From Gracilibacillus orientalis (GTDB taxonomy: Bacteria; Bacillota; Bacilli; Bacillales; Amphibacillaceae): a DNA stretch of 64,000 nucleotides. Both the position numbers and the translations under genes were made by a program. How positions within the stretch are numbered: position 1 is the first letter of the stretch; each line of letters begins with the position of its first letter. The DNA lies in NCBI RefSeq assembly GCF_900114645.1, contig NZ_FOTR01000009.1:62001-126000 (forward strand). The letters run 5' to 3'. The notes under the pieces were generated by a model that worked only from the letters and a program-made list of their open reading frames with translations, searched no databases and had not been told where the DNA came from. Positions 5,806-55,277 of the stretch are shown here, in pieces.

Positions 5806-5869
5806 CAAGATACTTCGCTTTTCTGCGGGATCTTCAGCTAGCGCTTCCCGCAGGAGTCTTCGTATCTTG
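5806..5869 (+). repeat. Structured dispersed repeat, short copy
   Basis: A 64-bp element with outer arms CAAGATAC (5806-5813) and GTATCTTG (5862-5869). The inner arms CTGCGGGA (5823-5830) and TCCCGCAG (5846-5853) pair perfectly. It carries the conserved GGATCTTC and CAGGAGTC blocks but lacks the internal hairpin present in the copies near 28.5, 28.8 and 55.2 kb. Confidence 0.8.
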
Positions 5870-5971
5870 TCTACGCTAGTTATGATGTTCTTATTTTCGA
5901 TAGAAGAAACCTATAAAATCAGTATCCATCGATTTTATCCTTTCAATCATCAGTGAATCCTTACCAGCGGA

Positions 5972-6084
5972 GGCAGAATACCAGTCTACTACAGGAACAG
6001 CACATATCCGCGGAACTCATAGCGAGGTACGAGCGAGGAGCCTGTGGCCACTTGTGCCCTCTGGTGCAAGCGAAGTATTCTGCC
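5972..6084 (-). repeat. Second palindromic element with arms shared with the 55-kb copy
   Basis: The outer arms GGCAGAATAC (5972-5981) and GTATTCTGCC (6075-6084) are identical to those of the element at 55168-55277. The interior is different, containing GTGGCCACTTGTG and GCGAGGTACGAGCGAGG. The flanking TTCGC block on the inverted strand is shared. It appears to be a related but distinct palindromic unit. Confidence 0.7.
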
Positions 6085-6206
6085 GGAGTGTTATTCCAGT
6101 ACTCCCTATAGAAGAAAGAAAATGGATGAGAAAGTTACTTAGCAGTTGATGGATTTTGTGTATATTTTAAAATTTCTGTTACATGGTGAAATGGAGGTGT
6201 GGTCTG

Positions 6207-8321
6207 GTGAGGCGTAGGTATAGACGTAGAAGGAAAAAGAGACGGTTGTTGAAGATTGGTTTTTTCCTGGTATTAATGATGGGGGCTTGTGTTGCAGTTC
6301 TGTTGATTGCGAGCTTTTTACTTGGCCCACCTTCTTTAGAACGGCCACAAAATACCATCTATTATAGTGACAATGAAGAAGTAATTGGGGAAGAATTCGG
6401 TTCAGAAAAAAGATACTGGGTATCACTCGATGAAATAGACGACCGTTTGGAACAAGCAACCGTATGGACAGAGGATCAACACTTCTATGATCACTTCGGG
6501 TTTGACTTTAAACGGTTAGCCGGAGCAATCTTGAAAGACATTCGCACCATGTCGCTAAAAGAAGGGGCAAGCACAATTACACAGCAGTACGCTCGTAATC
6601 TTTTTCTTACACATGATAAAACATGGCAACGGAAATTATATGAAGCTTTTTATACGATTCGATTAGAAATGTTTTATGATAAAGATGAGCTATTAGAAGG
6701 ATATTTAAATACGATATATTTCGGGCATGGTGCGTACGGTATTGAAGCTGCTAGTAAGTACTTTTTTGATAAATCTGCATCTGATCTCAGTTGGGCAGAA
6801 GCATCCATGCTGGCAGGAATACCGAAGGGGCCGTCAAACTACTCGCCTTTTCATAACTTAGATAATGCTAAAAACAGGCAAGAATTTATCTTAACCAATC
6901 TTTATGAGAAAAACGTGATCGATGATGTCACATATGAAACAGCTTTAAATGAAGAATTATCTTTTTCTGATAAGCGTGATATTACTACCAAAAGTGTCGC
7001 ACCTTACTTCCAGGATGTTGTGGTCAATGAATTAAAAGAATTACTGGATGTGGACATCGAAGATATTCGTTCAGGAGGCTACAAAGTCTATACCACATTA
7101 GACCTGAACCAGCAGCAAGCAATGAAACAAGCTTCTGATACCATCGATGCCAATTCCGACATTCAAATGGGTGCTGTGGCGATGAATCCTGATTCGGGGA
7201 GTGTCAGCGCATTGATTGGTGGCCGAAATTACCAAGATTCTTCATTTAACCGGGTAACACAAGCAAAGAGAATGCCAGGATCTGCTTTTAAACCTTTTCT
7301 GTATTATACCGCTTTAGAAAATGGGATGACGGCAGCCACGACCCTAATGAGTAAACCGACCACCTTTGAGTTAGCTGATGGTAAAAGCTATCAGCCTAGT
7401 AACTATAATGATTATTATGCCAATCAACCGATCACAATGGCGCAAGCGTTGGCACTTTCCGACAATATTTTCGCTGTCAAAACAAATATGTATGTGACAC
7501 CCGAGCGATTTGCCCAAGTTGCCAAAGATAAATTTCAATTTAAAAGTGAGTTGGAGCCAGTTCCATCCCTAGCATTAGGAACAGAGGTGGTGACAATGCA
7601 GGAGATGGTGACAGGGTACAGTATCATCGCCAATGGTGGTCTTGAAGTGGATGGCCATACCATCACAAAAGTGACAGATCCGTACGGTGAAGTGCTATAT
7701 GATCGAGAGGAAGAACAAACAGAGGATAAAGGATGGAACCCTTTTTCCAAACAAGAAGATGAACAAGTGTTGACAAAAGAGTATGCTTATATCCTGTCTG
7801 ATATGATGAAAGGGATGTTCCAAGAAGAATTAAACGGGTATATGAGTGTGACTGGTGCTTCTATAAATGACCAATTGACACATGAATATGCCGGAAAATC
7901 AGGAACAACTAATGGAGATAACTGGATGATTGGCTTCACACCCGCTCTTACTACTGGTGTTTGGGTTGGTTATGACGATAATCGCGACATTGTAAAAACC
8001 CGAGATAAACAATATGCGAAGGAAGTATGGGCAAGTTTTATGGAGACGGCCCATAAAGATCTACCTGAAGAACATATTACAAAACCTGAAAACGTGGTAG
8101 AAGCGTCGATTGATTTAAATACGGGTTACCTAGCAACAGATGCATGTGGTCAGACACACACGATGTTATTTGTGCGAGGAACAGAGCCGACAAAACATTG
8201 TACCATCCATTTAGAAGAATATGAACATGAGCATCCGGAAGAATTGGATGAGATGATTCCGGAAGACCGACTACTCGAAAACTGGTGGGAATGGATGTGG
8301 ACAGGAGAAGATGGTAGATAG
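6207..8321 (+). CDS. pbpG: Class A penicillin-binding protein (PbpG/PBP2d-like)
   Basis: Bifunctional peptidoglycan synthase anchored in the membrane. The start is GTG at 6207, 7-8 nt after GGAGGTG; an ATG at 6183 has no ribosome binding site. The protein has 704 residues. A basic cytoplasmic tail is followed by a membrane segment (about 16-38) and a GT51 glycosyltransferase domain with EDQHF (89-93), GASTITQQ and a YGIEAAS segment. The transpeptidase domain has SAFK (359-362), SDN (418-420) and KSGT (564-567), all intact. In B. subtilis the neighbour order speE-pbpG-ywhD is the same, and PbpG there acts in spore germ-cell-wall synthesis with PbpF. A strong hairpin terminator follows directly. 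Confidence 0.93.
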   Translation: MRRRYRRRRKKRRLLKIGFFLVLMMGACVAVLLIASFLLGPPSLERPQNTIYYSDNEEVIGEEFGSEKRYWVSLDEIDDRLEQATVWTEDQHFYDHFGFDFKRLAGAILKDIRTMSLKEGASTITQQYARNLFLTHDKTWQRKLYEAFYTIRLEMFYDKDELLEGYLNTIYFGHGAYGIEAASKYFFDKSASDLSWAEASMLAGIPKGPSNYSPFHNLDNAKNRQEFILTNLYEKNVIDDVTYETALNEELSFSDKRDITTKSVAPYFQDVVVNELKELLDVDIEDIRSGGYKVYTTLDLNQQQAMKQASDTIDANSDIQMGAVAMNPDSGSVSALIGGRNYQDSSFNRVTQAKRMPGSAFKPFLYYTALENGMTAATTLMSKPTTFELADGKSYQPSNYNDYYANQPITMAQALALSDNIFAVKTNMYVTPERFAQVAKDKFQFKSELEPVPSLALGTEVVTMQEMVTGYSIIANGGLEVDGHTITKVTDPYGEVLYDREEEQTEDKGWNPFSKQEDEQVLTKEYAYILSDMMKGMFQEELNGYMSVTGASINDQLTHEYAGKSGTTNGDNWMIGFTPALTTGVWVGYDDNRDIVKTRDKQYAKEVWASFMETAHKDLPEEHITKPENVVEASIDLNTGYLATDACGQTHTMLFVRGTEPTKHCTIHLEEYEHEHPEELDEMIPEDRLLENWWEWMWTGEDGR

Positions 8322-8324
8322 AAC

Positions 8325-8357
8325 GGAAAAAGGCTGGGCAAATGCCCAGCCTTTTCC
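8325..8357 (+). terminator. pbpG terminator
   Basis: A perfect hairpin, GGAAAAAGGCTGGGCA against TGCCCAGCCTTTTCC, starts four bases after the pbpG stop codon. The stem itself contains the A and T runs, so it can act on either strand. Confidence 0.85.
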
Positions 8358-8461
8358 GGTCCTAGTAACTAAGAGTTACCATGTGTATATATTTTATAAA
8401 AAAATGTTAGCTTAGGACAAGTATATTTGTTCATTTTTAGTTAATGTTCACAAAATGTTCA

Positions 8462-8974
8462 TTATTCTGGTAACGCTTGTTTTAATTCGTCGGATGAATT
8501 TTTCCACATCTGCGAATCAAATTCACGTAAGAAATCAGCGAGTAACTTTTGCGATTTTTCATCCATATGATCGACAATCACATGCCCTTTCATCGATTTA
8601 TCCATATGGTTCACATGTTCTGGCATTGATTTGTAAGCGCGTTTAATAGAACGGTCGACACGGACTTCACATCCGGTTACACCATGATAGTATGAACCGA
8701 TATCTCCACGTTCTACCGTTACCCAGACAATCCAGTATAGTTTACCGTTTGGAACATCTTCTTTATTCGGGAGAAATTTCACACGACGTTCCACTTCACT
8801 TCTCGCATGCATGGCTCCCATATCAACAAATGTGCGATCTTCATTCGGATCAACAATTACAGGGGAGATGTTTTCTAAACTGACGGATCCAACACCATAT
8901 CCTCCATGACCATCCGTGGAATCGTCCTTCATGATCGTAAATGCATTGGATTTCTTTTTCTTTTCTTCACTCAT
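8462..8974 (-). CDS. ywhD: YwhD family protein
   Basis: A 170-residue cytoplasmic protein of unknown function, conserved in Bacillaceae and close in length to B. subtilis YwhD (172). Characteristic segments are GHGGYGVGS near residue 22, GAMHARSEVERRVKFLP, YWIVWVTVERG and the HVNHMDKSMK-HVIVDHMD block. The start is supported by GGAGGA 5 nt before the ATG. It faces pbpG tail to tail and is divergent from ywhB. It keeps its B. subtilis neighbours, but nothing in the sequence shows an enzyme activity. Confidence 0.93.
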   Translation of the reverse strand: MSEEKKKKSNAFTIMKDDSTDGHGGYGVGSVSLENISPVIVDPNEDRTFVDMGAMHARSEVERRVKFLPNKEDVPNGKLYWIVWVTVERGDIGSYYHGVTGCEVRVDRSIKRAYKSMPEHVNHMDKSMKGHVIVDHMDEKSQKLLADFLREFDSQMWKNSSDELKQALPE

Positions 8975-9056
8975 GACAATCCTCCTACTTCTTTTACTAA
9001 TTATTGTAGCATGTTTAAAAGTGAGTTTTCATCTTCTTTGTTTCCCCTCTTCTTGC

Positions 9057-9082
9057 TTTTACGATACAATGATATTGTAAAG
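9057..9082. promoter_or_regulatory. Imperfect dyad upstream of ywhB (possible operator)
   Basis: TTTTACGATA and TATTGTAAAG form a nearly palindromic pair separated by 6 nt, about 50 bp before the ywhB start. The layout resembles an operator for a dimeric regulator. No regulator can be named from this sequence. Confidence 0.3.
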
Positions 9083-9132
9083 TGCCCGATATCCGTATTG
9101 GACACTCGTATTTTAATGAGGAGTGAATACAT

Positions 9133-9315
9133 ATGCCATACGTAACAGTTCAAATGCTAGAAGGCAGAACAGACGAGCAACGTAAAGCTTTGATTGACAA
9201 AGTAACAGATGCAGTTGTCGAGACAACTGGCGCATCTCGCGAAAAGGTTGTCGTATTTGTCGAAGATATTGACAAGCGTAATTATGGTGTAGGCGGCAAG
9301 CGTTTAATTGACTAA
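9133..9315 (+). CDS. ywhB: 4-oxalocrotonate tautomerase family protein
   Basis: A 60-residue tautomerase. After removal of the initiator Met, the N-terminal proline (MPYVTVQ) is the catalytic base of this superfamily. The downstream EGRTDEQRKALI helix, the VVVFVEDIDKRNYGVGG segment and the length fit the YwhB/2-hydroxymuconate tautomerase group. The proteins assemble as hexamers, and their natural substrate in Bacillus is not firmly known. GAGGAG precedes the ATG. It is monocistronic between ywhD (divergent) and a small membrane gene, with a hairpin right after its stop. Confidence 0.93.
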   Translation: MPYVTVQMLEGRTDEQRKALIDKVTDAVVETTGASREKVVVFVEDIDKRNYGVGGKRLID

Positions 9316-9332
9316 TCTATATAGTTGGTAAA

Positions 9333-9371
9333 TGGGATGAAGGACACTTTTTAGTGATTTCCTTCACTCCC
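9333..9371 (+). terminator. Hairpin after ywhB
   Basis: GGGATGAAGGA pairs with TCCTTCACTCCC around a T-rich loop, leaving small bulges. The T tail is weak, so termination is probable but not certain. Confidence 0.5.
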
Positions 9372-9415
9372 TACCTTTCATTGATATACTACCCATATGA
9401 AAGGATGTGTTTTGT

Positions 9416-9610
9416 TTGATTTATGCAAGTATAAGCGGATTTAACGTTAGCGGCATCATATTTTCGCTTATTTCGCTTATCTTCTTTTTCACCATTAACA
9501 CACTAATATTCTCACTTATTTTCCGACCTATCAAAAAAAGAAAACAACTAGAGCGGATCGAGGAAAAACTGGATAGACTTTTAGCGGAAAAAAATAACCC
9601 ATCATCATAA
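9416..9610 (+). CDS. Small single-span membrane protein (DUF4083-like)
   Basis: About 64 residues. One strongly hydrophobic segment (about 10-36) is followed by a basic, charged amphipathic tail (RPIKKRKQLERIEEKLDRLL), the pattern of DUF4083 proteins. The start chosen is TTG at 9416, 10 nt after AAAGGA; a GTG at 9407 is in frame but overlaps the ribosome binding site. Topology suggests the N-terminus outside and a cytoplasmic coiled tail. Function is unknown. A bidirectional terminator overlaps its stop and separates it from convergent ywgA. Confidence 0.65.
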   Translation: MIYASISGFNVSGIIFSLISLIFFFTINTLIFSLIFRPIKKRKQLERIEEKLDRLLAEKNNPSS

Positions 9611-9625
9611 ATGGGTTATTTTTGT
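9589..9625. terminator. Bidirectional terminator
   Basis: AAAAAATAACCCAT pairs with ATGGGTTATTTTT between two convergent genes. Both strands have a T run, and the hairpin overlaps both stop codons. Confidence 0.8.
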
Positions 9626-10110
9626 AGTCTATCAATAAATGCCCATGCTTCCTGTATGTCTTCTGGTGTATAGTTCGATTTTTTCTTTACTTCTTGCACC
9701 TTTTGTTCCATCTCATGTTTCGGCAGGTGATCGAAATAAAGCATGGTCGCAACGAGCTCCAAAAAACGTGAACTCTGTTCTTTCATTTCATGCACAATTG
9801 ACTCCATCAACGGCAGTTCTGTATGGGAATGTTTGAGAAAATCTTCTCCCTGCTCTGTCACCTGATAACGATATTGATAATAATTGCTCTTATTTTCTTT
9901 AACTTCTGAGACAAAACCGAGGTTGGTGATTTCCTCGATTCGTAAACTTAACTCTTCTGAATAAGGCCCGTAAAAGTAAAAGGTATACTTTTCTTCAAAA
10001 GGCAAGCCGAATTTTTTCATGATGTAGATGATTTTTTGTAACTTTTTACGCCCGACAATTCCTTCCGATGCTGCGATTACTTTAACAAGCTTTGCATGAT
10101 TATCTAGCAA
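9616..10110 (-). CDS. ywgA: YwgA family protein
   Basis: A 164-residue cytoplasmic protein of unknown function, syntenic with B. subtilis ywgA. The start chosen is TTG at 10110 (MLDNHAKL), which matches the family N-terminus and lies 7 nt after GGGGTG; a GTG at 10119 would overlap that site. Conserved blocks are GRKKLQKIIYIMKKFG, YTFYFYGPYSEEL and LRIEEITNLGFV. It follows ywfO by 19 nt in the same direction, so the two are probably co-transcribed. The pairing with an HD phosphohydrolase is conserved, but a functional link is only inference. Confidence 0.9.
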   Translation of the reverse strand: MLDNHAKLVKVIAASEGIVGRKKLQKIIYIMKKFGLPFEEKYTFYFYGPYSEELSLRIEEITNLGFVSEVKENKSNYYQYRYQVTEQGEDFLKHSHTELPLMESIVHEMKEQSSRFLELVATMLYFDHLPKHEMEQKVQEVKKKSNYTPEDIQEAWAFIDRLQK

Positions 10111-10129
10111 TGAAAACACCCCAGTTTCT

Positions 10130-11434: not shown

Positions 11435-11510
11435 GGCAAATACCTTCCTCTTTTTTCTTACTATTAGTATAATATAGTTTCAGGTGAACGAAAAGGTTTG
11501 GAGGATAATA

Positions 11511-12332: not shown

Positions 12333-13413
12333 GTACTTTTTGATCCGCTGATTGGAGGTTTAGGTCGTAGCCGATGCCGGGCTTTTTTGGTAGTGTGACA
12401 TAACCATTGTTGACCTCTACTTCCGGGGTGATAATATCTTGATGCCAATAGCGGCTCGATGCACCTGGATCGGCAGGTAGCGTGAAATTGGGTAGTGTTG
12501 CTAATGCTAAAGATTGTGCACGTCCTACTCCTGCTTCCAGCATTCCACCACACCAGACGGGAATGTTATGTTTGTGGCAATAGTTATGTATTTGAATTGC
12601 ATTGGTAAATCCGCCGACTTTTGCTAATTTAATACTGATGATCTTACAGCTTTGTAGTGCGATCGCCGTTTTGACATCTGCTAAAGTATGGATACTTTCA
12701 TCAAGGCAGATAGGTGTTTCTATCTGTTGCTGGAGCTTGGCATGCTCTGTTAAATCATCTGGTGCCAGTGGTTGTTCGAGCATCATTAAATGGTATTGAT
12801 CCATTTTTTTAAGATGTGCGATGTCTTGGAGCGTATAAGCAGAATTGGCATCGACCATCAATGGCGTTATGGGAAAATGTTCGCGTACCTTTTCTAAAAT
12901 GTGCAGGTCGTTTTTCGGCTTTATTTTTAATTTGATGCGTTTATAACCTTGGTCAAGTGCTTGTGTAATTTTTTCGATAAGTTGATCGTCACTGGATTGC
13001 AGTCCGATTGCGGCACCTACTGGAATATGGTTATTTGTGCCTCCAATGGCTTGGTAGAGCGGCAGTTTATTTCGCTTCGCATAGAGATCCCACACTGCAC
13101 CTTCGACAGCTGTTTTCGCCATATGATTTCTACGGATAGTGTTTAGTGCGAGTTCGCTCGGATGATTGATCTGTTGTACTTTGATCAATGGCCATAGATG
13201 GTGTTCGATCATATATTGCACAGTTGCTGTTGTTTCCTCTGTGTACCAAGGCGTATCAAATGCCACCGACTCGCCATAACCTATGAATCCATCCTTGTCA
13301 TGAAGTTCGGTAATAATGACGTCCTTTTTCTTAATGGTAGTGGTGCTATTTGAAAAAGGAAATTTGAGCGGCATCTTAAAACGATGCATGATTAATTTTT
13401 CGAATGCTAGCAT
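12325..13413 (-). CDS. menC: o-Succinylbenzoate synthase / N-acylamino acid racemase-type enolase-superfamily enzyme
   Basis: A 362-residue muconate-lactonizing-subgroup enzyme. Catalytic features are KIK in YKRIKLKIKP, the metal ligands in DANSAY, LEQPL and LDESI, and the second lysine in SIKLAKVGG. The C-terminal CGGMLEAGVGRA and SSRYWHQDI segments are typical of the OSBS/NSAR (MenC2) branch rather than Ala-Glu epimerases. No other menaquinone genes are nearby, so the physiological reaction may be OSB synthesis or N-acylamino acid racemisation. The reading frame opens just before the 21-bp repeat array, which therefore occupies its promoter region. The start is the first ATG, and its ribosome binding site (GGAGCC) is modest. 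Confidence 0.82.
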   Translation of the reverse strand: MLAFEKLIMHRFKMPLKFPFSNSTTTIKKKDVIITELHDKDGFIGYGESVAFDTPWYTEETTATVQYMIEHHLWPLIKVQQINHPSELALNTIRRNHMAKTAVEGAVWDLYAKRNKLPLYQAIGGTNNHIPVGAAIGLQSSDDQLIEKITQALDQGYKRIKLKIKPKNDLHILEKVREHFPITPLMVDANSAYTLQDIAHLKKMDQYHLMMLEQPLAPDDLTEHAKLQQQIETPICLDESIHTLADVKTAIALQSCKIISIKLAKVGGFTNAIQIHNYCHKHNIPVWCGGMLEAGVGRAQSLALATLPNFTLPADPGASSRYWHQDIITPEVEVNNGYVTLPKKPGIGYDLNLQSADQKVLT

Positions 13414-13430
13414 ATTGGTGGCTCCTTTTT

Positions 13431-13552
13431 TTGCTGGCCACTTTTTGGTGATTGCTGGCCACTTTTCTTCGTTTGCTGGCCACTTTATTTACTTTACTGG
13501 CCACTTTTTTGTATTTGCTGGCCACTTTTCCTCATTTGCTGGCCACTTTTAA
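13431..13552. repeat. Six-copy 21-bp phased TGGCCA array
   Basis: The core CTGGCCAC starts at 13434, 13455, 13476, 13497, 13518 and 13539, an exact 21-bp period. The consensus is about TTTGCTGGCCACTTTT plus five variable bases. The core contains the palindrome TGGCCA. The last three copies lie inside the 3' end of the NERD gene and encode KSGQQ repeats. A second array with the same consensus lies at 42051-42148. Confidence 0.9.
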
Positions 13553-14504
13553 AAAATTGTACTAAATACGGATGTGAATAATAAACTTGTTTGCTCTCTC
13601 CGAATTTTATATATCCTGCTCGTAATATTAATTTTCTAGTTGCTTCCGGTGAGTCAAGCATCAAAAATTCCTGCACTAATTTCTTCGTCAATCTATTCCC
13701 CGTCAACAATGCTAAGTGATAGAGCATCGACAAGTGTGCATCGTTACTGCGTGTGCCACAATACGAACATTGCCAGCGCATACGCTCACGTAACATTCCA
13801 CGTCTTTGACAATGGGGGCAGGGTACTCCTTTGATTAAATCTTCCCACAAAATGTGATGTTTTTCTAGTATCGAGATCGAGCGTTCTTGATGGTTTTCTT
13901 GCAAAAATTCAACTAATGCTCTATTTTGTTGTTCTGTTATAGCGGGTGAATGTTTGGCGGAAAGTTTTTCTAAAAATGCGGGAACTGCTTGACTAGTGAG
14001 GATGCGGTGATGTTCGGGGTAATCATGAAGTTGCAAGATGGCATGATGATTAACAAAGACCGCTGCTCTGTATACCGGCAGTTGTTGGATTTCATGATCA
14101 GATAAATAAGTTCGTAAGTTGGCATATTGCCTGTCCACTTGTAAAAGGGGATCATCAAAGGTTCTGGTGATGCCGTCTTTTTCACGAATCAATTGGTTAG
14201 ATTTCGGGTCAAAATAAATGATACCGGTGTAATTTTTCACTTCAAGAATGACGCGAAAGCCAGGTGTGAGAATGATCCAATCCAGTTGAAAGGATGAATG
14301 GTGTTCTAAACGCAGTCTTTTGATCAATTGGAAGCTTGGGATATATGCTTGATGAAGGTGATATTCGAGGTTGTCTTCTCCTGCGATTCCGGAGTCAAGG
14401 CGGCGGAAATGTCCATTAATGATTGGGTATTGGGTGTGCATTTCTGGGAGGTGTTCTAGGAGTGCATGATATTGCTGCCAAATAATTGGGGTTTCGGGTA
14501 TCAA
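13494..14504 (-). CDS. NERD-domain protein with C-terminal zinc ribbon and repeat tail
   Basis: About 336 residues. The N-terminal half is a nuclease-related domain: GIAGEDNLEYHL, LDWIILTPGFRVILEVKNYTG with the D...ExK pattern of the PD-(D/E)xK fold, then DPLLQVDRQ. A zinc ribbon follows (CPHC...CSYC). The last residues (KSGQQMRKSGQQIQKSGQ) are the translated 21-bp array, so the C-terminus was probably extended by the repeat. The start chosen is TTG at 14504 after AGGAGAGGG, because the upstream ATG at 14549 lies inside the pta terminator hairpin. NERD proteins are presumed to process nucleic acid; no specific role is established. Confidence 0.82.
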   Translation of the reverse strand: MIPETPIIWQQYHALLEHLPEMHTQYPIINGHFRRLDSGIAGEDNLEYHLHQAYIPSFQLIKRLRLEHHSSFQLDWIILTPGFRVILEVKNYTGIIYFDPKSNQLIREKDGITRTFDDPLLQVDRQYANLRTYLSDHEIQQLPVYRAAVFVNHHAILQLHDYPEHHRILTSQAVPAFLEKLSAKHSPAITEQQNRALVEFLQENHQERSISILEKHHILWEDLIKGVPCPHCQRRGMLRERMRWQCSYCGTRSNDAHLSMLYHLALLTGNRLTKKLVQEFLMLDSPEATRKLILRAGYIKFGESKQVYYSHPYLVQFFKSGQQMRKSGQQIQKSGQ

Positions 14505-28170: not shown

Positions 28171-28501
28171 CTTTTCTCCTCCTTTTTATTAAACCGATAT
28201 AAATACTTGGATTATGTTACATTTTATTATTTCATATGTCAAAACTTATGATTTGTGCAATAAAATATTTCCAAGTATTTATTATTTTATCAATATATCT
28301 TTGGTTACTTCTAGAGTGTTTGTCGTTCATCTCATTTTGTTCATCAAACACCATCATAAGAAAAAACGGGAAAGCCCACCCGGTCCTTATAACAGACAAA
28401 AATAAGAATCGTGAACATGCAAAAAGGGTGGATATCTTATCGTTTACTTTGCTCACATACGGTTGAAATGAATAGTATAGATAACACCCGCTTCGGCTTG
28501 T
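28171..28501. other. Upstream region of tcyP
   Basis: AT-rich DNA that should contain the tcyP promoter. Short open frames on both strands lack ribosome binding sites and family likeness. From 28502 the gap is occupied by two inverted copies of the structured repeat. Confidence 0.4.
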
Positions 28502-28605
28502 CCATTTCGCTTTCCGGGTGGCATGCTCGTCAGCTAACTTTGCAAAGAAAAGCCCTTTGCAAAGTGGATCTTCCGATCACGCTGATCACCCAGGAGTCGA
28601 AATGG
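28502..28605 (+). repeat. Structured dispersed repeat, full copy
   Basis: Outer arms are CCATTTCG (28502-28509) and CGAAATGG (28598-28605). The inner arms are GGGTG (28516-28520) and CACCC (28587-28591). An internal hairpin, ACTTTGCAAAG/CTTTGCAAAGT, spans 28537-28565 with an A-rich 7-nt loop. It carries GGATCTTC and CAGGAGTC. The arms differ in sequence from those of the other copies but pair perfectly. Confidence 0.85.
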
Positions 28606-28733
28606 CCGCCTACGCTAAATAATGCTCGACAATGCGTGTAAGTATTGATGACGACTGCCATTCTATGTTTTAAGAAAACTCGACATGTTCCGTGTACATA
28701 ACATTGTAGCATCACTATCTAGCGAAGGCCGGA

Positions 28734-28837
28734 CGCTTCCACTCCAGTGGGAACTGTTTTACTCGAAGATCCACTTTTCCAAGCGGTTTTTGCTCGGAAA
28801 AGTTAGCTGAGAGGAAAACCCCACGGAAAGGGAAGTG
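28734..28837 (-). repeat. Structured dispersed repeat, inverted copy
   Basis: This copy runs opposite to the one at 28502. The outer arms CGCTTCC/GGAAGTG and the internal hairpin TTTTCCAAGC/GCTCGGAAAA each have one imperfect pair. The inner arms GTGGG/CCCAC are perfect. The conserved GGATCTTC is present on the minus strand. The two copies flank a spacer of about 130 bp. Confidence 0.75.
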
Positions 28838-28950
28838 ACCAGCCGTAGCGATTGCCTAACACTCTATACCTTTCAAAACACTCTTTATTTATGTCGCTGC
28901 TATAAGACAAAACGCTGTTATACCACGGATTATATATTTTCTTTAATTAT

Positions 28951-28982
28951 AAAAAAACTTGCACTCACTAGGAGTACAAGTT
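28951..28982 (-). terminator. OsmC-family gene terminator
   Basis: AACTTG.ACTC pairs with GAGT.CAAGTT on the minus strand, followed by seven T residues at the end of the OsmC-like gene. Confidence 0.8.
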
Positions 28983-40274: not shown

Positions 40275-42047
40275 ATGAGTACATTACATTTATTAAAAAA
40301 ATATTTTGGTTACGATGATTTCCGCCCTGGGCAAGAAAAAATTGTAGACCAAGTTCTCCATCAGAAAAACACATTAGCAATCATGCCGACTGGCGGAGGC
40401 AAATCGATTTGTTATCAAATTCCCGGTTTAGCACAAGATGGGATTACCATAGTAATCTCTCCGCTTATTTCCTTAATGAAAGATCAAGTGGACGCCCTTC
40501 AATCATTAGGTGTTGCTGCTACATACATAAACAGCTCCTTGACTACAGAAGAGCAATTCAACAGATTAGCTGAGATTCGTAACGGAAAATATAGATTTGT
40601 CTATGTTGCACCGGAACGTTTTGATTCCAAAGCTTTTTTTAATGCGCTTAATTCACTAGATGTTTCTTTGATTGCTTTTGATGAAGCCCACTGTATTTCA
40701 CAATGGGGACACGACTTCCGGCCCAGTTATCGTACCGTTGTACAAGCTGTCAATCAGTTACGAAAGCGTCCTGTTCTCGTTGGATTAACAGCAACAGCCA
40801 CGGCTGAGGTGATTCGTGATTTACAACAGTTGCTCGATGTGAAGGACGAGGCTGTTGTCAATACTGGCTTTGCTCGTGACAATCTTACCTTCCAAGTTGT
40901 AAAAGGACATGATCGTCAAAATTATGTAACAGATTATTTACGAGCACACCCTGATGACACTGGTATTATTTATGCTATTACAAGAAAACAAGTTGACCAA
41001 TTATATTTTTTATTACAAGGAAAAGGCTTCTCTGTAAGGAAATATCACGCAGGGATGTCAGAAGAAGCTAGAAAAGAAGCACAAAATGATTTTATTTACG
41101 ACAATGCGCAAGTGATGGTAGCTACCAATGCATTCGGAATGGGGATTGATAAGTCCAATGTCCGCTACGTTCTCCACTATGCCTTGCCGAAAAATCTAGA
41201 AAGTTATTATCAAGAGGCTGGTCGTGCCGGACGTGATGGTGAACCAAGTCAATGTGTGATTCTTTTTTCCGGACAGGATATTACCTTGCAAAAATACTTA
41301 ATTGATCAGTCAGAAATGATGGATGAGGAGAAAAAGAAAGGCGAATATGGTAAATTACAGGCAATGATCAATTATTGCCATACCGACCAATGTCTACAGC
41401 AATATATCCTGCGTTATTTTAATGATAAGATTTCTTCGACTGAAGCATGTGGAAATTGCTCTAATTGTGACAGTGAATTAGAAAAAGTCGACCGCACCAA
41501 GGAAGCTCAAAAGGTACTCTCCTGTGTCAAGCGGATGGATGAGCGATTCGGTGCCAGTTTAGTTGCAAAAGTCTTAAAGGGATCGAATGACAAAAAAGTA
41601 AAACAATTTCGCTTTGACCGGTTATCTACATACGGACTAATGAAAGATATGACAGAGAAAGAGCTCGTTTCCTTTATTCAATTTTTAGTAGCGGAAGACT
41701 TTTTGTTATCTGAAGGCGGACGTTTCCCTGTCCTACGCCTGAGCAAACGAGCAGTATCTGTTTTAACAGAAGAAGAAAAAGTCTATGTACAAGCAGCCAA
41801 AGTTGAGACAAAAGAAGTTGTTGAATACGATGTGGAGATATTTGAACAACTACGAAAATTGCGCAAATCCTTAGCAGATCAGCAAGGGGTTCCGCCTTAT
41901 GTCATTTTTTCTGATAAAAGCTTGCGGGAGATGTCTGTTGACAAGCCTACATCTAAATATGAGATGTTGCAGATTCATGGAGTTGGTGAGCGCAAGTTCG
42001 AACAATATGGCGATGTGTTTTTGGAATGCTTTGTGGAAAAAGCATAA
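40275..42047 (+). CDS. recQ: ATP-dependent DNA helicase RecQ
   Basis: A 590-residue superfamily 2 3'-5' helicase for recombination and replication-fork repair, the length of B. subtilis RecQ (591). The Walker A is TGGGKS (39-44) and the DEAH box is at 136-139, followed by the aromatic-rich loop QWGHDFRPSY. Motif VI is QEAGRAGRDGEPS, and the zinc-binding region has cysteines in DQCLQQY and CGNCSNCD. A winged helix and a C-terminal HRDC domain (VPPYVIFSDKSLREM, IHGVGERKFEQYG) complete it. AAGGATG precedes the ATG. The stop is followed at once by the second 21-bp TGGCCA array. Confidence 0.96.
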   Translation: MSTLHLLKKYFGYDDFRPGQEKIVDQVLHQKNTLAIMPTGGGKSICYQIPGLAQDGITIVISPLISLMKDQVDALQSLGVAATYINSSLTTEEQFNRLAEIRNGKYRFVYVAPERFDSKAFFNALNSLDVSLIAFDEAHCISQWGHDFRPSYRTVVQAVNQLRKRPVLVGLTATATAEVIRDLQQLLDVKDEAVVNTGFARDNLTFQVVKGHDRQNYVTDYLRAHPDDTGIIYAITRKQVDQLYFLLQGKGFSVRKYHAGMSEEARKEAQNDFIYDNAQVMVATNAFGMGIDKSNVRYVLHYALPKNLESYYQEAGRAGRDGEPSQCVILFSGQDITLQKYLIDQSEMMDEEKKKGEYGKLQAMINYCHTDQCLQQYILRYFNDKISSTEACGNCSNCDSELEKVDRTKEAQKVLSCVKRMDERFGASLVAKVLKGSNDKKVKQFRFDRLSTYGLMKDMTEKELVSFIQFLVAEDFLLSEGGRFPVLRLSKRAVSVLTEEEKVYVQAAKVETKEVVEYDVEIFEQLRKLRKSLADQQGVPPYVIFSDKSLREMSVDKPTSKYEMLQIHGVGERKFEQYGDVFLECFVEKA

Positions 42048-42050
42048 ACT

Positions 42051-42148
42051 TTGCTGGCCACTTTTTATGCTTTGCTGGCCACTTTTTTCAATTTGATGGC
42101 CACTTTTCCAATTTTCCTGGCCACTTTCAGACGTTTGCTGGCCACTTT
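42051..42148. repeat. Five-copy 21-bp phased TGGCCA array after recQ
   Basis: Core positions are 42054, 42075, 42096, 42117 and 42138, an exact 21-bp period. The consensus TTTGCTGGCCACTTTT is the same as in the 13431-13552 array. The third unit has ATGGCCAC and the fourth CCTGGCCAC. It starts 3 bp after the recQ stop and ends just before a terminator, between convergent genes. Confidence 0.9.
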
Positions 42149-42152
42149 AATC

Positions 42153-42188
42153 AAAAGAACTCCCGTTACAACATAACGGGAGTTCTTT
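42153..42188. terminator. Bidirectional terminator between recQ and ampS copy 2
   Basis: AAAGAACTCCCGTTA pairs with TAACGGGAGTTCTTT, with A and T runs on both sides. Confidence 0.88.
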
Positions 42189-47682: not shown

Positions 47683-47848
47683 CTCTTATTTTGAGTGGCA
47701 GAGGGAATAGGCCCAGTGAAGCCCGGCAACCGTCAATTTGAACATCAAATTGGAATGGTGCTAAATCCTACAGGTTTTACCTGAGAGATAAGAGGAGGAC
47801 AACTAATATTTTCAACCTCTTCTTACTTTCGTTAAGAAGGGGTTTTTT
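47683..47848 (+). promoter_or_regulatory. SAM-I riboswitch (S box) with terminator
   Basis: P1 pairs CTCTTAT (47683-47689) with ATAAGAG (47788-47794). The conserved core is present: GAGTGGCAGAGGGAATAGGCC, AGTGAAGCCCGGCAACC, the P3 hairpin, GGTGCTAAATCC and ACCTGAGAGATAAGAGG. A terminator hairpin follows at 47814-47848 (CCTCTTCTTA with TAAGAAGGGG, then T residues), whose 5' strand can alternatively pair with the 3' side of P1. With SAM bound the terminator forms and the metY gene is off. Confidence 0.96.
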
Positions 47849-47858: not shown

Positions 47859-49541
<1,683 letters not shown>

Positions 49542-49627: not shown

Positions 49628-49816
49628 ATTGTTGTGTTTACAGCATATTTTCCTATTTACCTTAAATTCTTTGTTGTGATACAATACATATCATTATACA
49701 AAACAAGCATTTTAATCCATTGAATTGCATAACCTTTAACACAAAGTATCTTACCACAAGAATGTAACGACAAGTGCAATGCGCAGGTTATGGCTTTTAT
49801 GTTTTGCTTGTTTTCT

Positions 49817-49844
49817 TTTAACAATTATAAAAGACGGGTATAAT
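49817..49844 (+). promoter_or_regulatory. Probable ypmR promoter
   Basis: A consensus -10 TATAAT (49839-49844) lies 16 bp after TTTAAC (49817-49822), 34 bp upstream of the ypmR start. The -35 is weak. The rest of the 330-bp gap holds the metY terminator and no gene. Confidence 0.5.
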
Positions 49845-49877
49845 CAAGTAAGAGACTTTTTAATGTAGGTGTTTATG

Positions 49878-50756: not shown

Positions 50757-50768
50757 AGGATGACAATA

Positions 50769-51374
50769 ATGGAAGAGAAAAAAATAACCAATTGGAAAAA
50801 GCTATTTGTTACCTTAGGTTCCATTAACATTCTCCTGATTGTCGGGATTGTACTTTTCATTTTCTGGCCGGTACCCGGTGCGGAACCACCAGAGAAAGTA
50901 TTTCTTGAAGAGGAATCAGGGGCGGAATTTACGATCCGCTCAAGTAAAGATAACCTAAATGAGTTAGTTAATGCTTATATTGAGAAATTACCGAAGCCAG
51001 CAAACATACAATATTCACTCCGGCTAGATGAAGAAGTCCATATGATGGGGACTGTTGAAGCTTTCTCAACAGAAGTGCCAGTAAACATTTCGTTTGAACC
51101 GATCGTACAGGAAAATGGTGACATCATCCTCCAGTCTACCGGGATGTCCCTAGGATTATTACGCTTACCACAGGACCGTATTTTGCAATATGTTAGCAGT
51201 CGTGTAGAAACACCTGAATGGATTACGATCAATCCAAAAGAAGAACAAATTTATATCGCTATAACACAAATGGAATTAAGAAGTAATTTCCATATAAGAG
51301 CACAGCAAATTGATCTAGTAAAGGATAATATTTCTTTCCGTATTAAGGTGCCGAATAATACTTTAGGATTATAA
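50769..51374 (+). CDS. ypmS: YpmS family protein (DUF2140)
   Basis: 201 residues from ATG at 50769, 9 nt after AAAGG; an in-frame ATG at 50760 overlaps that site. There is one N-terminal membrane helix (about 12-33), then an extracytoplasmic beta-rich DUF2140 domain with an LNELVNAYIEKLP motif, alternating hydrophobic strands (YSLRLDEEVHMMGTVEAF, VPVNISFEPIVQENGDIIL) and the SLGLLRLPQDRILQYV helix. It is always paired with ypmR in Bacillus. Function unknown, probably envelope-related. It ends convergent with liaR, only 46 bp away. Confidence 0.88.
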   Translation: MEEKKITNWKKLFVTLGSINILLIVGIVLFIFWPVPGAEPPEKVFLEEESGAEFTIRSSKDNLNELVNAYIEKLPKPANIQYSLRLDEEVHMMGTVEAFSTEVPVNISFEPIVQENGDIILQSTGMSLGLLRLPQDRILQYVSSRVETPEWITINPKEEQIYIAITQMELRSNFHIRAQQIDLVKDNISFRIKVPNNTLGL

Positions 51375-51420
51375 TTAGGCGAGGTAGACAATCCTTGCTT
51401 TTTTTGTTCACTATTTGGAC

Positions 51421-52062
51421 CTAGCTACCATTTTCAATTAATCCGTTTTGATAGGCATAAACAGCCGCCTGTGTACGATCTTGCACTTCCAGCTTACTTA
51501 AAATATTGCTGACGTGGACTTTCGTAGTTTTTAGCGCAATAAACAGTTCGTCAGCAATTTCCTGATTGGTCTTTCCTTGGGCAACTAATAAAAGGATTTC
51601 CATCTCCCGTTTTGTTAAACTTTCATGTAATGCTTGAGAACTTCGACTACTGAATTTTGCCATCACTTTAGCTGTCACTTCTTTTTCAAGAACAGATTCG
51701 CCTGCATAGGTATCGCGAATGGCTTTGGCGATCACATCTGCTTTCGAAGTTTTTAATAGATAGCTTGTCGCACCAGCTTCTAATGCAGGATAGACTTTAT
51801 CATCGTCAATAAAACTAGTAACAATTAAAATCTTCGCTTCCGGCCATTTATCAATGATCAGGCGTGTTGCTTCGATACCATCCATCCCATCCATAACTAA
51901 GTCCATTAAAATCACATCCGGTCTATGTTCCAGAGCTAATTCCACTGCTTTTTGACCATTATCCGCCTCCGCAATAACATCGATATCACCCTGTGTTGTC
52001 AAATAAGCACTCACACCGATTCGCACCATTTCATGATCATCAACAAATAATACTCGTATCAT
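51421..52062 (-). CDS. liaR: LiaR response regulator
   Basis: A 213-residue NarL/FixJ-type regulator. The receiver domain has the acidic pair in FVDDHEMVR, the phospho-acceptor D54 in ILMDLVMDG, the Thr in VTSFIDD and the Lys in YLLKTSK. The LuxR-type HTH is LTKREMEILLLVAQGKTNQEIADELFIALKT (about 147-178), split here as LTKREMEILLL and NQEIADELFI. It is last in liaF-liaS-liaR; its ATG overlaps the liaS stop as TAATG. It should activate the liaI promoter and, by inference, the similar promoter near 57.1 kb. Confidence 0.94.
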   Translation of the reverse strand: MIRVLFVDDHEMVRIGVSAYLTTQGDIDVIAEADNGQKAVELALEHRPDVILMDLVMDGMDGIEATRLIIDKWPEAKILIVTSFIDDDKVYPALEAGATSYLLKTSKADVIAKAIRDTYAGESVLEKEVTAKVMAKFSSRSSQALHESLTKREMEILLLVAQGKTNQEIADELFIALKTTKVHVSNILSKLEVQDRTQAAVYAYQNGLIENGS

Positions 52063-53096
52063 TATTTCTCACCTTCTTCACTGATTAATGGAACACGTAC
52101 TTCTATTTTTGTACCTTCATTTGTTAGACTTACCATGTTGAGACGAGCACCAACTTCTGCCGCTCGCTCATATATATTAGTGAGCCCATAAGAACTTTCT
52201 TTTTTCTCCTCTACATTAAATCCGATACCATCGTCGACAATTCTCAGAATTAAAAAATCATCCCGTTCAATTAATAAGATATCGATTGCAGAAGCTTTAG
52301 CATGTCTTAATGCATTGGAGATAGCTTCTTGTAAAATTCGGAAGAGCTGATCTTCAATTCCCTTGTTCACTTTAATTTCTTCCAAACGCCAGGATATATC
52401 CATTGGTACTTTGGCGTGGAGCTCCTCCAGTAGTTGCTCCATTCCTTCATTTAATGATTTATCATTTAATAAGACCGGACGCAAATGCAATAGCAAAGCA
52501 CGCATTTCTAATTGTGCCTGTTGAATCATTGCTTCGATTTGATGTAGTTGCTTAGTTGTTGTTTCTTTTTGCTCTTTATTAGATGCAATCACAGCAGAAA
52601 CAAGCATAGAAGCAGCAAAAAGCTCCTGACTGACAGAGTCATGTAACTCTCTTGCTAAACGGTTTCGCTCTTCGGAAATAACCCGATTAATCGTCTCTTC
52701 CTGTGCACTTGCTCTTTCATCGATTAATTTCTGGGTCCGTTTTGTCTGATCTTGAATGTATTGCTGTACTTCTTTTAACCGACTGAGCACATGATTCATT
52801 TCTTCATAGGATACAGGATCTGAAAAAGATTGATTTTTAAGCAATCCGGTTAAACTGTTTTCTAAAAACTGAATACGTCGTTGCCAGATAGCAGCAATGA
52901 TAATACCGATAATCGTACCAAAAAGAATCGTGACAGTCGGCAGCATAACGACAAATGGAATCTCTAAGACTTTTGTCGTCCATAGTAATTGCCAATTTTC
53001 GATTGGAAATGCCAGATAATAAAATACACTCAAAATGATGAGCAGGAACAATGCAAACATAGACCCAGTTGCGATCATTCTAGTATATAATTTCAT
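52062..53096 (-). CDS. liaS: LiaS sensor histidine kinase
   Basis: A 344-residue intramembrane-sensing kinase with two membrane helices (about 8-30 and 47-70) and only a short extracellular loop. A coiled-coil linker follows. The HisKA_3 phosphoacceptor is ARELHDSVSQELFA (H152) and the HATPase has EAISNALRHAKA (N box), VDDGIGFN and SYGLTNIYERA. It pairs with LiaR and is inhibited by LiaF in B. subtilis. Its ATG overlaps the liaF stop as ATGA, so liaF-liaS-liaR are translationally coupled. Confidence 0.94.
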   Translation of the reverse strand: MKLYTRMIATGSMFALFLLIILSVFYYLAFPIENWQLLWTTKVLEIPFVVMLPTVTILFGTIIGIIIAAIWQRRIQFLENSLTGLLKNQSFSDPVSYEEMNHVLSRLKEVQQYIQDQTKRTQKLIDERASAQEETINRVISEERNRLARELHDSVSQELFAASMLVSAVIASNKEQKETTTKQLHQIEAMIQQAQLEMRALLLHLRPVLLNDKSLNEGMEQLLEELHAKVPMDISWRLEEIKVNKGIEDQLFRILQEAISNALRHAKASAIDILLIERDDFLILRIVDDGIGFNVEEKKESSYGLTNIYERAAEVGARLNMVSLTNEGTKIEVRVPLISEEGEK

Positions 53097-53812
53097 CCTC
53101 TTCTCACCTCAAGCTTTCCAGCAATCATTTGGGTAAAGATTTTTACCCTTTGAGGTGAGCTATGATAGTCTTTGGTCTGTAGTTGAACGTGACGATTAAA
53201 AGCATTTTTCTCCTCATGATCAAATGCTTCGATATCACCAAATACGACAGAGTGATCAATCGTAACTTCTACATCATATGGAACAATAATGACAATTTTT
53301 CCAGCAAGGTGACGTATGACCATAATTGATTCTTCTTTCGGCAGCATCGTATCATTTAAATCGACTGCCACATCACCGAATGCTGATTGAATATTCAGGT
53401 CCTGCCAGGAGAAGCCGTTTTGAGTTGTATGGTATTTACCAAACCATTTATTTTGAATGACACGGTCCTCGTACAGTGTTTCTTCTGTCATATCAATATA
53501 GTTAGGTAGCGGTTGTTGCTCCTTTTGCTTCTGTTGGTACCAATGCCAGATCAAATAAATAATAATAGCAAAAATAAAGAATCGAATCACAAACGTATTG
53601 ATAACAGCAACAAAAACAATGAATGCACCACCCCAGAAAAGCGTTTTACCAGTGGTGCTTTGAAAAGAACGTCTTCCGAAATACATTCCTACTGCCCCTA
53701 ATGCAATAAGAAAAAGGAGGCCAGCATCCATAAAAATAAATTCTACAAGCAAAAACACACAACCGATTGTTAATAGAATCTTTAATAGATCATTATTTGG
53801 TTTTTTTGACAT
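53093..53812 (-). CDS. liaF: LiaF, inhibitor of LiaS
   Basis: A 239-residue membrane protein with four N-terminal helices (about 8-100, including LFWGGAFIVFVAVINTF) and a soluble C-terminal beta-helix domain of the LiaF/cell-wall-active-antibiotics-response type: FGDVAVDLNDTML, IRHLAGKIVIIVPYDVEVTIDHSVVFGDIEAF, split by charged turns. It keeps LiaS off until the cell envelope is damaged. AAAGGGGG lies 9 nt before the ATG. No liaG gene is present between liaH and liaF, unlike B. subtilis; a terminator hairpin sits there instead. Confidence 0.92.
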   Translation of the reverse strand: MSKKPNNDLLKILLTIGCVFLLVEFIFMDAGLLFLIALGAVGMYFGRRSFQSTTGKTLFWGGAFIVFVAVINTFVIRFFIFAIIIYLIWHWYQQKQKEQQPLPNYIDMTEETLYEDRVIQNKWFGKYHTTQNGFSWQDLNIQSAFGDVAVDLNDTMLPKEESIMVIRHLAGKIVIIVPYDVEVTIDHSVVFGDIEAFDHEEKNAFNRHVQLQTKDYHSSPQRVKIFTQMIAGKLEVRRG

Positions 53813-53920
53813 ATGAGCAGGCCCCCTTTTGTGAATTTTTTATCGTTAACGAAAACTTTTTTTCGTCATTTCAATTAGTCATCTATGCTTAAATTTTACA
53901 CTTTCCTAACATGTAATAAA

Positions 53921-53945
53921 AGGTGCAGGATTTTCTGCACCTTTA
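53921..53945 (-). terminator. Attenuating terminator between liaH and liaF
   Basis: AAAGGTGCAG pairs with CTGCACCTTT around a 5-6-nt loop, followed by TTTTATTA on the minus strand. It should keep induced liaIH expression much higher than liaFSR. Confidence 0.85.
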
Positions 53946-53960
53946 TAGGATAGCATGTTT

Positions 53961-54590
53961 TTAGTTAGTTGTTGTAGCCTTTTTTTCTAATTCTTGAAAG
54001 CGTGCATCTAAAGTATGCAAGCGAGAATCTGTTTGGACACGTTGTTCAATGCGTTCAATGTAGCTTTCAAGCTCCGCAAATTTTGAGGCGCTTTTAGATA
54101 CTAGTTCCGTTTCCAGCACTTTGTTCATCCCTTGTTTTGTACGAGCAATGTTTTCTCTGCTTCGTAATTCCAGTCGCTTTACATAAAGATCTTTTAATTT
54201 CTGTTTCATTTGGACGTATTTTGTCTCCAGCATTTCTAGATCTTTGACTGACTTATCGGACATTTCATTTAAGTGGGAAACACGTGCCTCGAATTGCTCT
54301 AAATCTGTTTTTGCCTCTTCCAACAATTCTGTTTCTTCCATTTCTTCTGCTAATTGGACTTGACGTTTACGTTTTTCGACCATCATATTTGCGTGGTTTA
54401 ATTCTTTTGCAATATCCTGTTTTATTTCATATTGTTTCTCAACCAATCGCTTGATTTTCTTTACTTCTACCTCACACTCTCGGATGTACTGGTTAACGTG
54501 TGCGATCGGATTTTTCTCCTCTTTTCGATCCATTGCCTCATGTAAATCTGCCTTCACCGAATCTTTAATACGTGTAAATAGGTTTGACAT
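53961..54590 (-). CDS. liaH: LiaH, PspA/IM30 family protein
   Basis: A 209-residue PspA-like protein, almost entirely long coiled coil. The N-terminal amphipathic helix (NLFTRIKDSVKADLHEAMD) should bind membranes, followed by PIAHVNQYIRECE and heptad repeats to the C-terminus. The start is ATG at 54590 behind GAGGAGG; the longer frame to 54629 overlaps liaI and lacks a ribosome binding site. LiaH forms large rings that protect the membrane when cell-wall antibiotics act. It is co-transcribed with liaI, 23 bp upstream. Confidence 0.93.
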   Translation of the reverse strand: MSNLFTRIKDSVKADLHEAMDRKEEKNPIAHVNQYIRECEVEVKKIKRLVEKQYEIKQDIAKELNHANMMVEKRKRQVQLAEEMEETELLEEAKTDLEQFEARVSHLNEMSDKSVKDLEMLETKYVQMKQKLKDLYVKRLELRSRENIARTKQGMNKVLETELVSKSASKFAELESYIERIEQRVQTDSRLHTLDARFQELEKKATTTN

Positions 54591-54613
54591 GTTAAATTCC
54601 TCCTCGTTTTTAT

Positions 54614-54922
54614 TTAAAGCTTGTCCCAATCTAAGTAATCCTGATGTTCTTTTTCTTCCTGATATTTTTTATAGCTGTAATATAGTACAACCAAAGCAAC
54701 CACACCGATTAGTGCTGGTATGTTAGACAATGACATTGAAACACCGATTAAAATCACAATTCCCCAACCGACTTTTTTTCCGGTGGTATTCGCTAAGATA
54801 AATTGCTTCACACCGTAATAAGCAAGCACCACACTAATTACAAGCATAATCATCGGGCCTAGGTTTGCTAGTAAGATGATTGAGGCGATCACAGCTAAAC
54901 TGATAAGTAGAAATGTTTTCAA
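54614..54922 (-). CDS. liaI: LiaI-like small membrane protein
   Basis: 102 residues from TTG at 54922, with AAGGAGGG upstream; the longer ATG frame from 54964 is promoter sequence. Three or four hydrophobic segments fill residues 3-85, ending in a charged cytoplasmic tail (YKKYQEEKEHQDYLDWDKL). It resembles LiaI, which anchors LiaH at the membrane, although it is shorter than B. subtilis LiaI (126). It is the first gene of the liaIH unit, directly after a LiaR-type promoter. Confidence 0.85.
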   Translation of the reverse strand: MKTFLLISLAVIASIILLANLGPMIMLVISVVLAYYGVKQFILANTTGKKVGWGIVILIGVSMSLSNIPALIGVVALVVLYYSYKKYQEEKEHQDYLDWDKL

Positions 54923-54930
54923 TTGCGTTC

Positions 54931-55020
54931 CCTCCTTCCATGTCTTAATAATAGCTTGTCTCACCGTTTTGGGTAATGGGCTGCAGATATATTTTAGACT
55001 AAGACCGGAGGCGTATTTTG
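54931..55020 (-). promoter_or_regulatory. liaI promoter and probable LiaR operator
   Basis: On the minus strand TTACCC (54976-54971) and TATTAT (54953-54948) lie 17 bp apart. Upstream are GTCTTAGTCTAAAATATATC and AAAATACGCCTC. The poor -35 fits an activator-dependent promoter. The whole block recurs at 57047-57136 with 73 of 88 aligned bases identical by hand count, so it is under selection or recently copied. Confidence 0.75.
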
Positions 55021-55167
55021 TGTAAGACTAGGTTGGAATTATATATAACAATTCTAAAGAAAACCGGGCATTACACGCGCCCCTTCGGTGTTCTCACTAG
55101 ATAAAAACTGCGAACCAATGAAAATTTCTATAGAGTGACTTTCTTCCATGTGGTATGTCACCGCTTC

Positions 55168-55277
55168 GGCAGAATACTTCGCTTTCCGGGGGCACGGCTT
55201 CAGCTTCCTCGGCAGAAACCCTCTGCCTGTGGGATCTTCAGCTCGCGCTATTCCCCCAGGAGTCTGCGTATTCTGCC
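55168..55277 (+). repeat. Structured dispersed repeat, full copy
   Basis: Outer arms are GGCAGAATAC (55168-55177) and GTATTCTGCC (55268-55277). The inner arms are GGGGG (55188-55192) and CCCCC (55253-55257). The internal hairpin GGCAGA/TCTGCC spans 55211-55227 with an AACCC loop. Conserved GGATCTTC and CAGGAGTC blocks are present. It lies between the liaI promoter and the next element. Confidence 0.85.

Follow-up and report, generated by a model that had tools for sequence, protein, structure and literature searches.

Integron attC sites and the ends of IS200/IS605 elements are folded single-stranded DNA that is read by shape, with arms that are free in sequence. Repetitive extragenic palindromic sequences (REPs) are 20-40 bp long, with a GTAG or CGTC tag at one end, and miniature inverted-repeat transposable elements (MITEs) such as bcr1 of the Bacillus cereus group are non-coding, structured and mobile-like (PMC3733652, in excerpt). 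Stem-loop families named Bhal-1, Bant-1 and Sta-1 to Sta-4 are reported from B. halodurans, B. anthracis and Staphylococcus aureus, Bhal-1 with 36 copies of 74 bp and Sta-1 with 25 copies of 105 bp (PMC2267715, in excerpt). We analysed a window of Gracilibacillus orientalis DNA (the whole stretch of 64,000 nucleotides, positions 62,001 to 126,000 of contig NZ_FOTR01000009.1) in which a sequence-only reading had pointed to four dispersed elements with paired arms. These four elements are part of a dispersed family of non-coding hairpin repeats found in many Bacillales genomes.

Each unit of this family was a nested imperfect hairpin of 105-130 nt with internal loops, larger than a REP. Like the paired form of REPs (REPINs), the units occurred as inverted pairs of palindromes, mostly between genes, and were multiplied within genomes. 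The linkage of REPINs to REP-associated Y1 transposases (RAYTs) was not found for the units in their own genome, in 80 genomes of the host's taxonomic family or at 20 RAYT-like loci. The units resembled MITEs such as bcr1 in being non-coding, structured and mobile-like, and in the terminal inverted repeats (AAACTGCGNA ends) of their commonest composite type. They differed from them in having hypervariable complementary arms and, in a search that was not exhaustive, no parent insertion sequence that we could find; bcr1 was compared by description only. Bhal-1, Bant-1 and Sta-1 to Sta-4, also compared by description only, are likewise stem-loop repeat families. Our literature search found no description of the unit family.

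The core pattern GGRTCTTCN{8,30}AGGAGTC matched 77 times in the 4.61 Mb genome and the reversed control pattern did not match at all, so the family is not a product of chance. A covariance model, R1, was built from 21 own-genome units (its construction left out 27 sequences in set A1, 22 in A2 and 21 in A3), and copy numbers per genome from the own-genome, family, class and tsr24 searches are lower bounds. R1 gave at least 143 matches at E 0.01 or better in the own genome (150 scored candidates). The same search, of a kind that the sequence-only reading had proposed, matched 75 of the 80 genomes of the host's taxonomic family (own included; 44 of 46 genera) and, at E 1e-5, 47 of the 299 genomes of its class (own included; 24 of 119 genera). 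A pattern scan of named genomes returned at least 114 stretches under at least 20 genus names; Aquibacillus, Sporosarcina, Halobacillus, Gracilibacillus, Sediminibacillus, Planococcus, Psychrobacillus, Evansella and Caldibacillus were among the matches listed. The earlier remark that similar repeats occur in other Bacillaceae was supported, in that other Bacillales carry them. We tried plasmid or phage carriage and rejected it on one-unit blastn searches: unit 28490-28616 had no match at E 1e-5 in plasmids, and one unit of locus L065 had none at E 1e-5 in phages, each being a single query that diverged copies may escape.

The four window elements lay where the sequence-only reading had placed them and paired as it had described. 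By our count the window holds six units rather than four; with two further units (1b and 4b) recognised, they make three composites of two inverted units each, as follows.

5701..6163, no strand: composite W1, with degenerate ends and approximate limits; the same gap is without the composite in G088, G073 and G090.
5798..5876, plus strand: unit 1, internally deleted, outer arms CAAGATAC/GTATCTTG (R1 match at E 2.4e-9, and sequence).
5967..6090, minus strand: unit 1b, the degenerate inverted partner of unit 1, outer arms GGCAGAATAC/GTATTCTGCC (R1 at E 2.8e-4, and sequence).
28357..28957, no strand: composite W2, with approximate limits; missing in G088 and G090, occupied in G073.
28489..28615, plus strand: unit 2, outer arms CCATTTCG/CGAAATGG, inner arms GGGTG/CACCC (R1 at E 7.8e-21).
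28722..28850, minus strand: unit 3, the inverted partner of unit 2, inner arms GTGGG/CCCAC (R1 at E 9.3e-18).
55098..55640, no strand: composite W3; its left limit is a TAGATAAAAACTGCGAA end and its right limit is approximate.
55162..55282, plus strand: unit 4, outer arms GGCAGAATAC/GTATTCTGCC, inner arms GGGGG/CCCCC (R1 at E 1.3e-23).
55379..55612, minus strand: unit 4b, the inverted partner of unit 4, ends approximate, with a large internal replacement and outer arms GCTGCGGAAAAA/TTTTTCCGCAGC.

Unit 4b gave no match to R1 and was recognised by reading and by BLAST, in which 55162-55612 matched a composite in L042 at 81%. A matching end was sought on the right side of W3 and none was found. 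The inner arm of copy 1, CTGCGGG/CCCGCAG, which had been set beside those of the other copies, is by our reading of the sequence non-homologous to them, because an internal deletion puts the 3' flank of the apical hairpin in its place. RNA folding z-scores of the four original elements were -4.2, -4.3, -5.2 and -4.2 (single strands).

From the outside inwards, a unit started with an outer stem of about 5-10 pairs, followed by a loop in which CGC(T) faced AGTC. The second stem paired TTCC-GYGGG with CCCRC-A-GGAG; inside it came a third stem that varied, a loop in which a CTTCAGC-like motif faced GGRTCTTC, and the apical hairpin. The internal-loop motifs were strongly conserved and look nearly invariant; part of this constancy in sets A3, A5 and A6 is due to selection of loci, because these were picked by patterns holding part of GGRTCTTC and AGGAGTC. 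The outer arms lie outside those patterns. They were characteristic of a genome or genus, and each had its complement opposite. Aquibacillus sediminis had GGCAGAATAC and GGAAATACAC, Paenibacillus bovis DE0126 had TGTACAC, a Halobacillus had GTCAAAATAC and Sediminibacillus had GGTAGCATAC. Outer arms in Sporosarcina were short and varied, and in Sporosarcina-type single units a further outer arm pair covaried when read by eye (GTTGATT/AATCAAC, GTTGCTT/AAGCAAC, GTTGACT/AGTCAAC, GTTGTTT/AAACAAC, AGGATT/AATCCT, GATGATT/AATCATC).

Eleven loci (L003, L014, L017, L019, L030, L033, L053, L057, L060, L063 and L067) held units whose 5' half was replaced or interrupted by a different repeat carrying AGTGTCTTCTATGCC or a close variant; the units are therefore modular. 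At L042:981-1105 (minus strand) the outer arms of a unit mix two subfamilies and hence pair imperfectly, which, judged from the sequence, suggests recombination between copies.

Pairing was scored over 19 pairs in three sets of units. The own-genome loci scored with R1 were 57 and the window (9 overlapping loci and L031 were dropped), the named-genome loci were 79 of the at least 114 stretches (A5 and the gene-context counts rest on these), and the wider set comprised 23 class loci and 10 loci from the tsr24 search described below. The 21 own-genome units had 97.2% of cells paired, with two-sided changes at 11 of the 19 pairs. For 108 distinct named-genome units 96.2% of cells were paired (0 of 500 shuffles as high) and 14 of 19 pairs showed two-sided changes, including all ten outer pairs; for 32 distinct units of the wider class and tsr24 loci the values were 96.3% and 17 of 19. 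Paired cells, two-sided-change cells and the covariation score exceeded all 500 shuffles in all three sets. The count of further pair types exceeded all shuffles in the named-genome set only, with 450 of 500 shuffles as high in the own genome and 81 of 500 in the wider set. When partners were slid by 1-3 columns, pairing fell to 37.5-55.8% (38.8-53.4% for own-genome units). Sets A4-A7 were fitted to R1, so the pair counts lean towards the R1 structure. The earlier observation that sequence changes while pairing persists held above shuffles and slid controls, in the own genome and across at least 20 named genera.

The same behaviour was visible at a single site. At W2 the same-genus genome G073 had the outer arms CCACTTCG/CGAAGTGG in place of CCATTTCG/CGAAATGG, with compensated changes, and its second stem was GTGGG/CCCAC where that of G. 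orientalis was GGGTG/CACCC. These arm differences may stem from replacement by another copy.

Units of the own genome lay mostly in tail-to-tail inverted pairs. Paired units were always tail to tail: among 147 composites we counted 68 of the order plus-minus, 1 plus-minus-minus, 78 single units and none minus-plus. Near-identical copies occupied many unrelated, mostly intergenic sites, and composites from separate sites could share as much as 97.7% identity (383 bp), or 96.5% over 664 bp; 15 of the 147 overlapped a mechanically called open reading frame (ORF) of at least 110 aa. We also observed site polymorphism. W1 was lacking in all three close relatives examined (G088, G073 and G090), which had 24-51 bp instead of about 490 bp, and W2 was lacking in two (G088 and G090), which had 104 and 178 bp instead of about 680. 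R1 found no unit at the empty loci L191, L193 and L203-L205. The two ends of the commonest composite type could be told apart but had AAACTGCGNA in common (fuzzy matching gave 57 and 49 ends, in overlapping sets); two-unit copies with both ends spanned about 430-680 bp and shorter ones 133-310 bp. Such terminal ends were not seen for the W2-type composite. A non-exhaustive search for an autonomous AAACTGCGNA-ended partner gave 12 further sites; 9 of them had both ends, separated by 133-436 bp, and the other 3 showed no partner end.

All window copies were intergenic, as had been claimed. The further suggestion that some sit in divergent promoter regions was right for W1, at 5.8 kb, between divergent spermidine synthase and penicillin-binding protein genes. 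It failed for W2, between tandem SDF symporter and OsmC protein genes, and for W3, also in a tandem setting, between a 116-aa ORF (itself next to a PspA-like gene) and a DUF3889 gene. W3 was overlapped by two mechanical 94-aa ORFs and by no flanking Pfam-matched gene. Promoter placement was not typical of the family either. Across the named-genome loci, with gap length uncontrolled, divergent gaps made up 8 of 70 composite contexts versus 51 of 225 other gaps (p 0.04) and convergent gaps 25 of 70 versus 31 of 225 (p 1e-4), and 37 of the 70 composite contexts were tandem. A direct repeat adjoins W3 (54911-55019 and 57027-57135, 80% identical over 109 nt, family D4).

To separate a constraint on RNA from one on DNA we compared mismatches in the stems, since an RNA strand under selection should tolerate G-U but not A-C. 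The control was the S-adenosylmethionine (SAM) riboswitch of same-family genomes, represented by the window aptamer (RF00162, 81.3 bits, 47683-47794, upstream of ORF 47871-49541) and 20 of 30 loci that passed the filter, giving 13 distinct outer and 13 distinct P4 stems. Distinct control stems had 21 G-U and 1 A-C mismatches. In contrast, the outer arms of the units had 14 G-U and 28 A-C over 102 distinct arm pairs (Fisher p 9e-7 versus the control) in A5 and A7 together, the sets chosen for this headline figure as furthest from the own genome; the separate sets had G-U and A-C counts of 7 and 5 (A4), 13 and 24 (A5), 36 and 23 (A6), and 1 and 4 (A7). Without its first pair, the second stem had 15 G-U and 14 A-C in the own genome and 3 and 3 in the genus set, and no stem came near the control's 21 to 1 on the GGAGTC strand. 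Orientation likewise gave no sign of a single transcribed strand: among 63 single units, the scorable ones showed no bias, with 22 in the direction of most genes and 27 against it, and with corresponding counts of 9 and 14 for tandem neighbours and 27 and 30 for GC skew. Because outer-arm mismatches do not favour G-U and single units lack orientation bias, the evidence leans towards an outer-stem constraint that acts on DNA or on both strands and not on a single RNA strand, with support that some stems contest. The sequence-only reading had proposed a selected fold, either an RNA or a cruciform read by a protein. Outer-arm mismatches and orientation do not clearly support the RNA half, and a DNA hairpin or cruciform fits somewhat better, short of proof.

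It had also advised comparison with Rfam. At gathering thresholds nothing was found at the element positions, the SAM riboswitch being the sole match in the window. Permissive searches repeatedly matched RF02577 tsr24 to the units, on their reverse complement, at E 2.8e-6 for L065 (two-locus search), at E 9e-4 for the whole model in L116 and, within the own genome, at E 3.8e-8. Positions 94-214 and 123-210 of the model aligned to reverse-complemented L065 units with both stems and the loop motifs, and R1 found units in 6 of the 10 tsr24-search loci (L325-L334). Since the best own-genome score of 43.7 bits is below the gathering score of 50, the units are relatives of tsr24 and not members. The two differ in that the tsr24 model describes a 238-nt transcript from the other strand, and in that tsr24 carries the name of an S. 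aureus small RNA and not of a dispersed repeat. RF02577 was itself multi-copy in several genomes of family f20, presumably Staphylococcaceae (for example, at least 6 matches in G125). No paper on tsr24 was found in the literature search; an S. aureus transcriptome study describes a small number of repeated transcripts, most of them near transposases (PMC2873960).

Our best explanation, on which we judge the balance to be even, is that the units form a family of mobile DNA that spans the Bacillales, is non-coding and non-autonomous, and is recognised by the shape of its hairpin. The constraint would act on hairpin DNA, either extruded or in single-stranded intermediates of replication or transfer, rather than on RNA. 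A protein supplied in trans would read the hairpin shape through the loop bases and move or copy the element, and spread would be limited to copies with intact hairpins. Because only such copies would spread, each new subfamily would have arms of changed sequence that still pair. Pairing, dispersal, the geometry of the pairs and site polymorphism are observed, whereas an enzyme and a step of transposition are inferred; the mover may be an enzyme other than a Y1/RAYT transposase, or replication and repair alone may copy the element. The attC sites and IS200/IS605 ends are a comparison of working principle only.

Several observations weigh against this explanation. No transposase was identified for the units. 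The empty-site relatives are 85-90% identical in the flanks, with 24-178 bp of unrelated sequence there, and are too diverged to reveal an exact insertion junction or a target-site duplication; by eye, no such duplication was seen at composite ends. The own-genome outer arms had more G-U (36) than A-C (23) over 41 distinct pairs. The second stem minus its first pair had 23 G-U and 8 A-C in the named genomes, which tilts towards RNA on the GGAGTC strand. The apical hairpin had 1 G-U and 15 A-C, a tilt towards RNA on the opposite (tsr24) strand that partly reflects shared ancestry. Rfam lists the unit relative tsr24 as an S. aureus small RNA. Finally, own-genome units at 5-10% divergence of the rest had 130 one-sided and 46 two-sided arm changes.

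A rival reading takes the units as a structured RNA like tsr24 (a small RNA or a cis element) that has multiplied, with compensatory changes keeping the RNA fold. The strong covariation in all three unit sets, the sub-threshold tsr24 matches, the named-genome second-stem counts and the apical-hairpin A-C excess, which is G-U on the tsr24 strand, all speak for it. We nevertheless regard it as rather unlikely, because the outer arms do not favour G-U as the SAM control does, the second stem and apical hairpin lean to opposite strands, 103 of 105 units have T-G as their first inner pair, which on the tsr24 strand is an A-C mismatch, and single units lack orientation bias. It is quite improbable that the units are an old repeat without current mobility, its arms kept complementary by hairpin-templated correction (quasipalindrome repair or template switching). 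In named genomes at 5-10% divergence, two-sided Watson-Crick changes outnumbered one-sided ones (263 versus 126 pair cells, from non-independent sequence pairs), which speaks for correction. The own-genome counts given above run the other way; near-identical copies at different sites and site polymorphism also make a copying step necessary. Arm correction and mobility could work side by side.

Palindromic units in inverted pairs with lineage-specific sequence would also suit a REPIN-like element moved by a RAYT, and Y1_Tnp matches occurred in 64 of the 80 family genomes, some of RAYT-like length. This reading is very improbable: the own genome has a Y1 remnant only (profile positions 1-35, one stop), 13 of the 16 family genomes without a Y1 match had units, and none of 20 RAYT-like loci, judged so by frame length with 2 of the 20 read as translations, held a unit within the 3.5 kb taken. 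These same three observations led us to disfavour RAYT mobilisation. Least credible of all, to the point that we give it hardly any weight, is a role as transcription terminators or bidirectional attenuators. The hairpins are GC-rich and in excess in convergent gaps, but the contexts are largely tandem, and scans of the W2 and W3 gaps for a hairpin with a T tract returned 4 terminator-like sites, one of them inside unit 3 with a weak T tract (28737-28752); we disfavoured the terminator reading on both counts.

Three observations stand apart from these questions. The loci L285-L304, from genomes of the host's taxonomic family, hold Y1 transposase-like genes, with frames of about 190-300 aa and often one per genome. 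Two far-apart gene-boundary stretches of the window, 13410-13577 and 42009-42176, have a common repeat of 21-nt period with four copies each (family D1). At 182-459, a repeat of 51-nt period in four copies (family D2) overlaps a 99-aa ORF (178-477).

The mobile-DNA explanation has a stronger form, doubtful at present and put forward tentatively: the units may be mobile elements of a new class, for which the shape of folded DNA is the sole address and in which a non-Y1/RAYT enzyme would read the conserved internal-loop bases of the hairpin and the arms would be free in sequence, kept or remade complementary. If this is true, each lineage carries its own arm signature, and tsr24 of S. aureus would be transcribed from such an element and would not be a dedicated regulator. 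The family brings together many anonymous repeats of Bacillales and a small RNA listed by Rfam. The units also offer a natural data set on covariation, which is usually taken to prove an RNA but here occurs in an outer stem that lacks an RNA's tolerance of G-U. RNA discovery by covariation should take this as a caution, and it may lead to a mobilising enzyme that would read structure.

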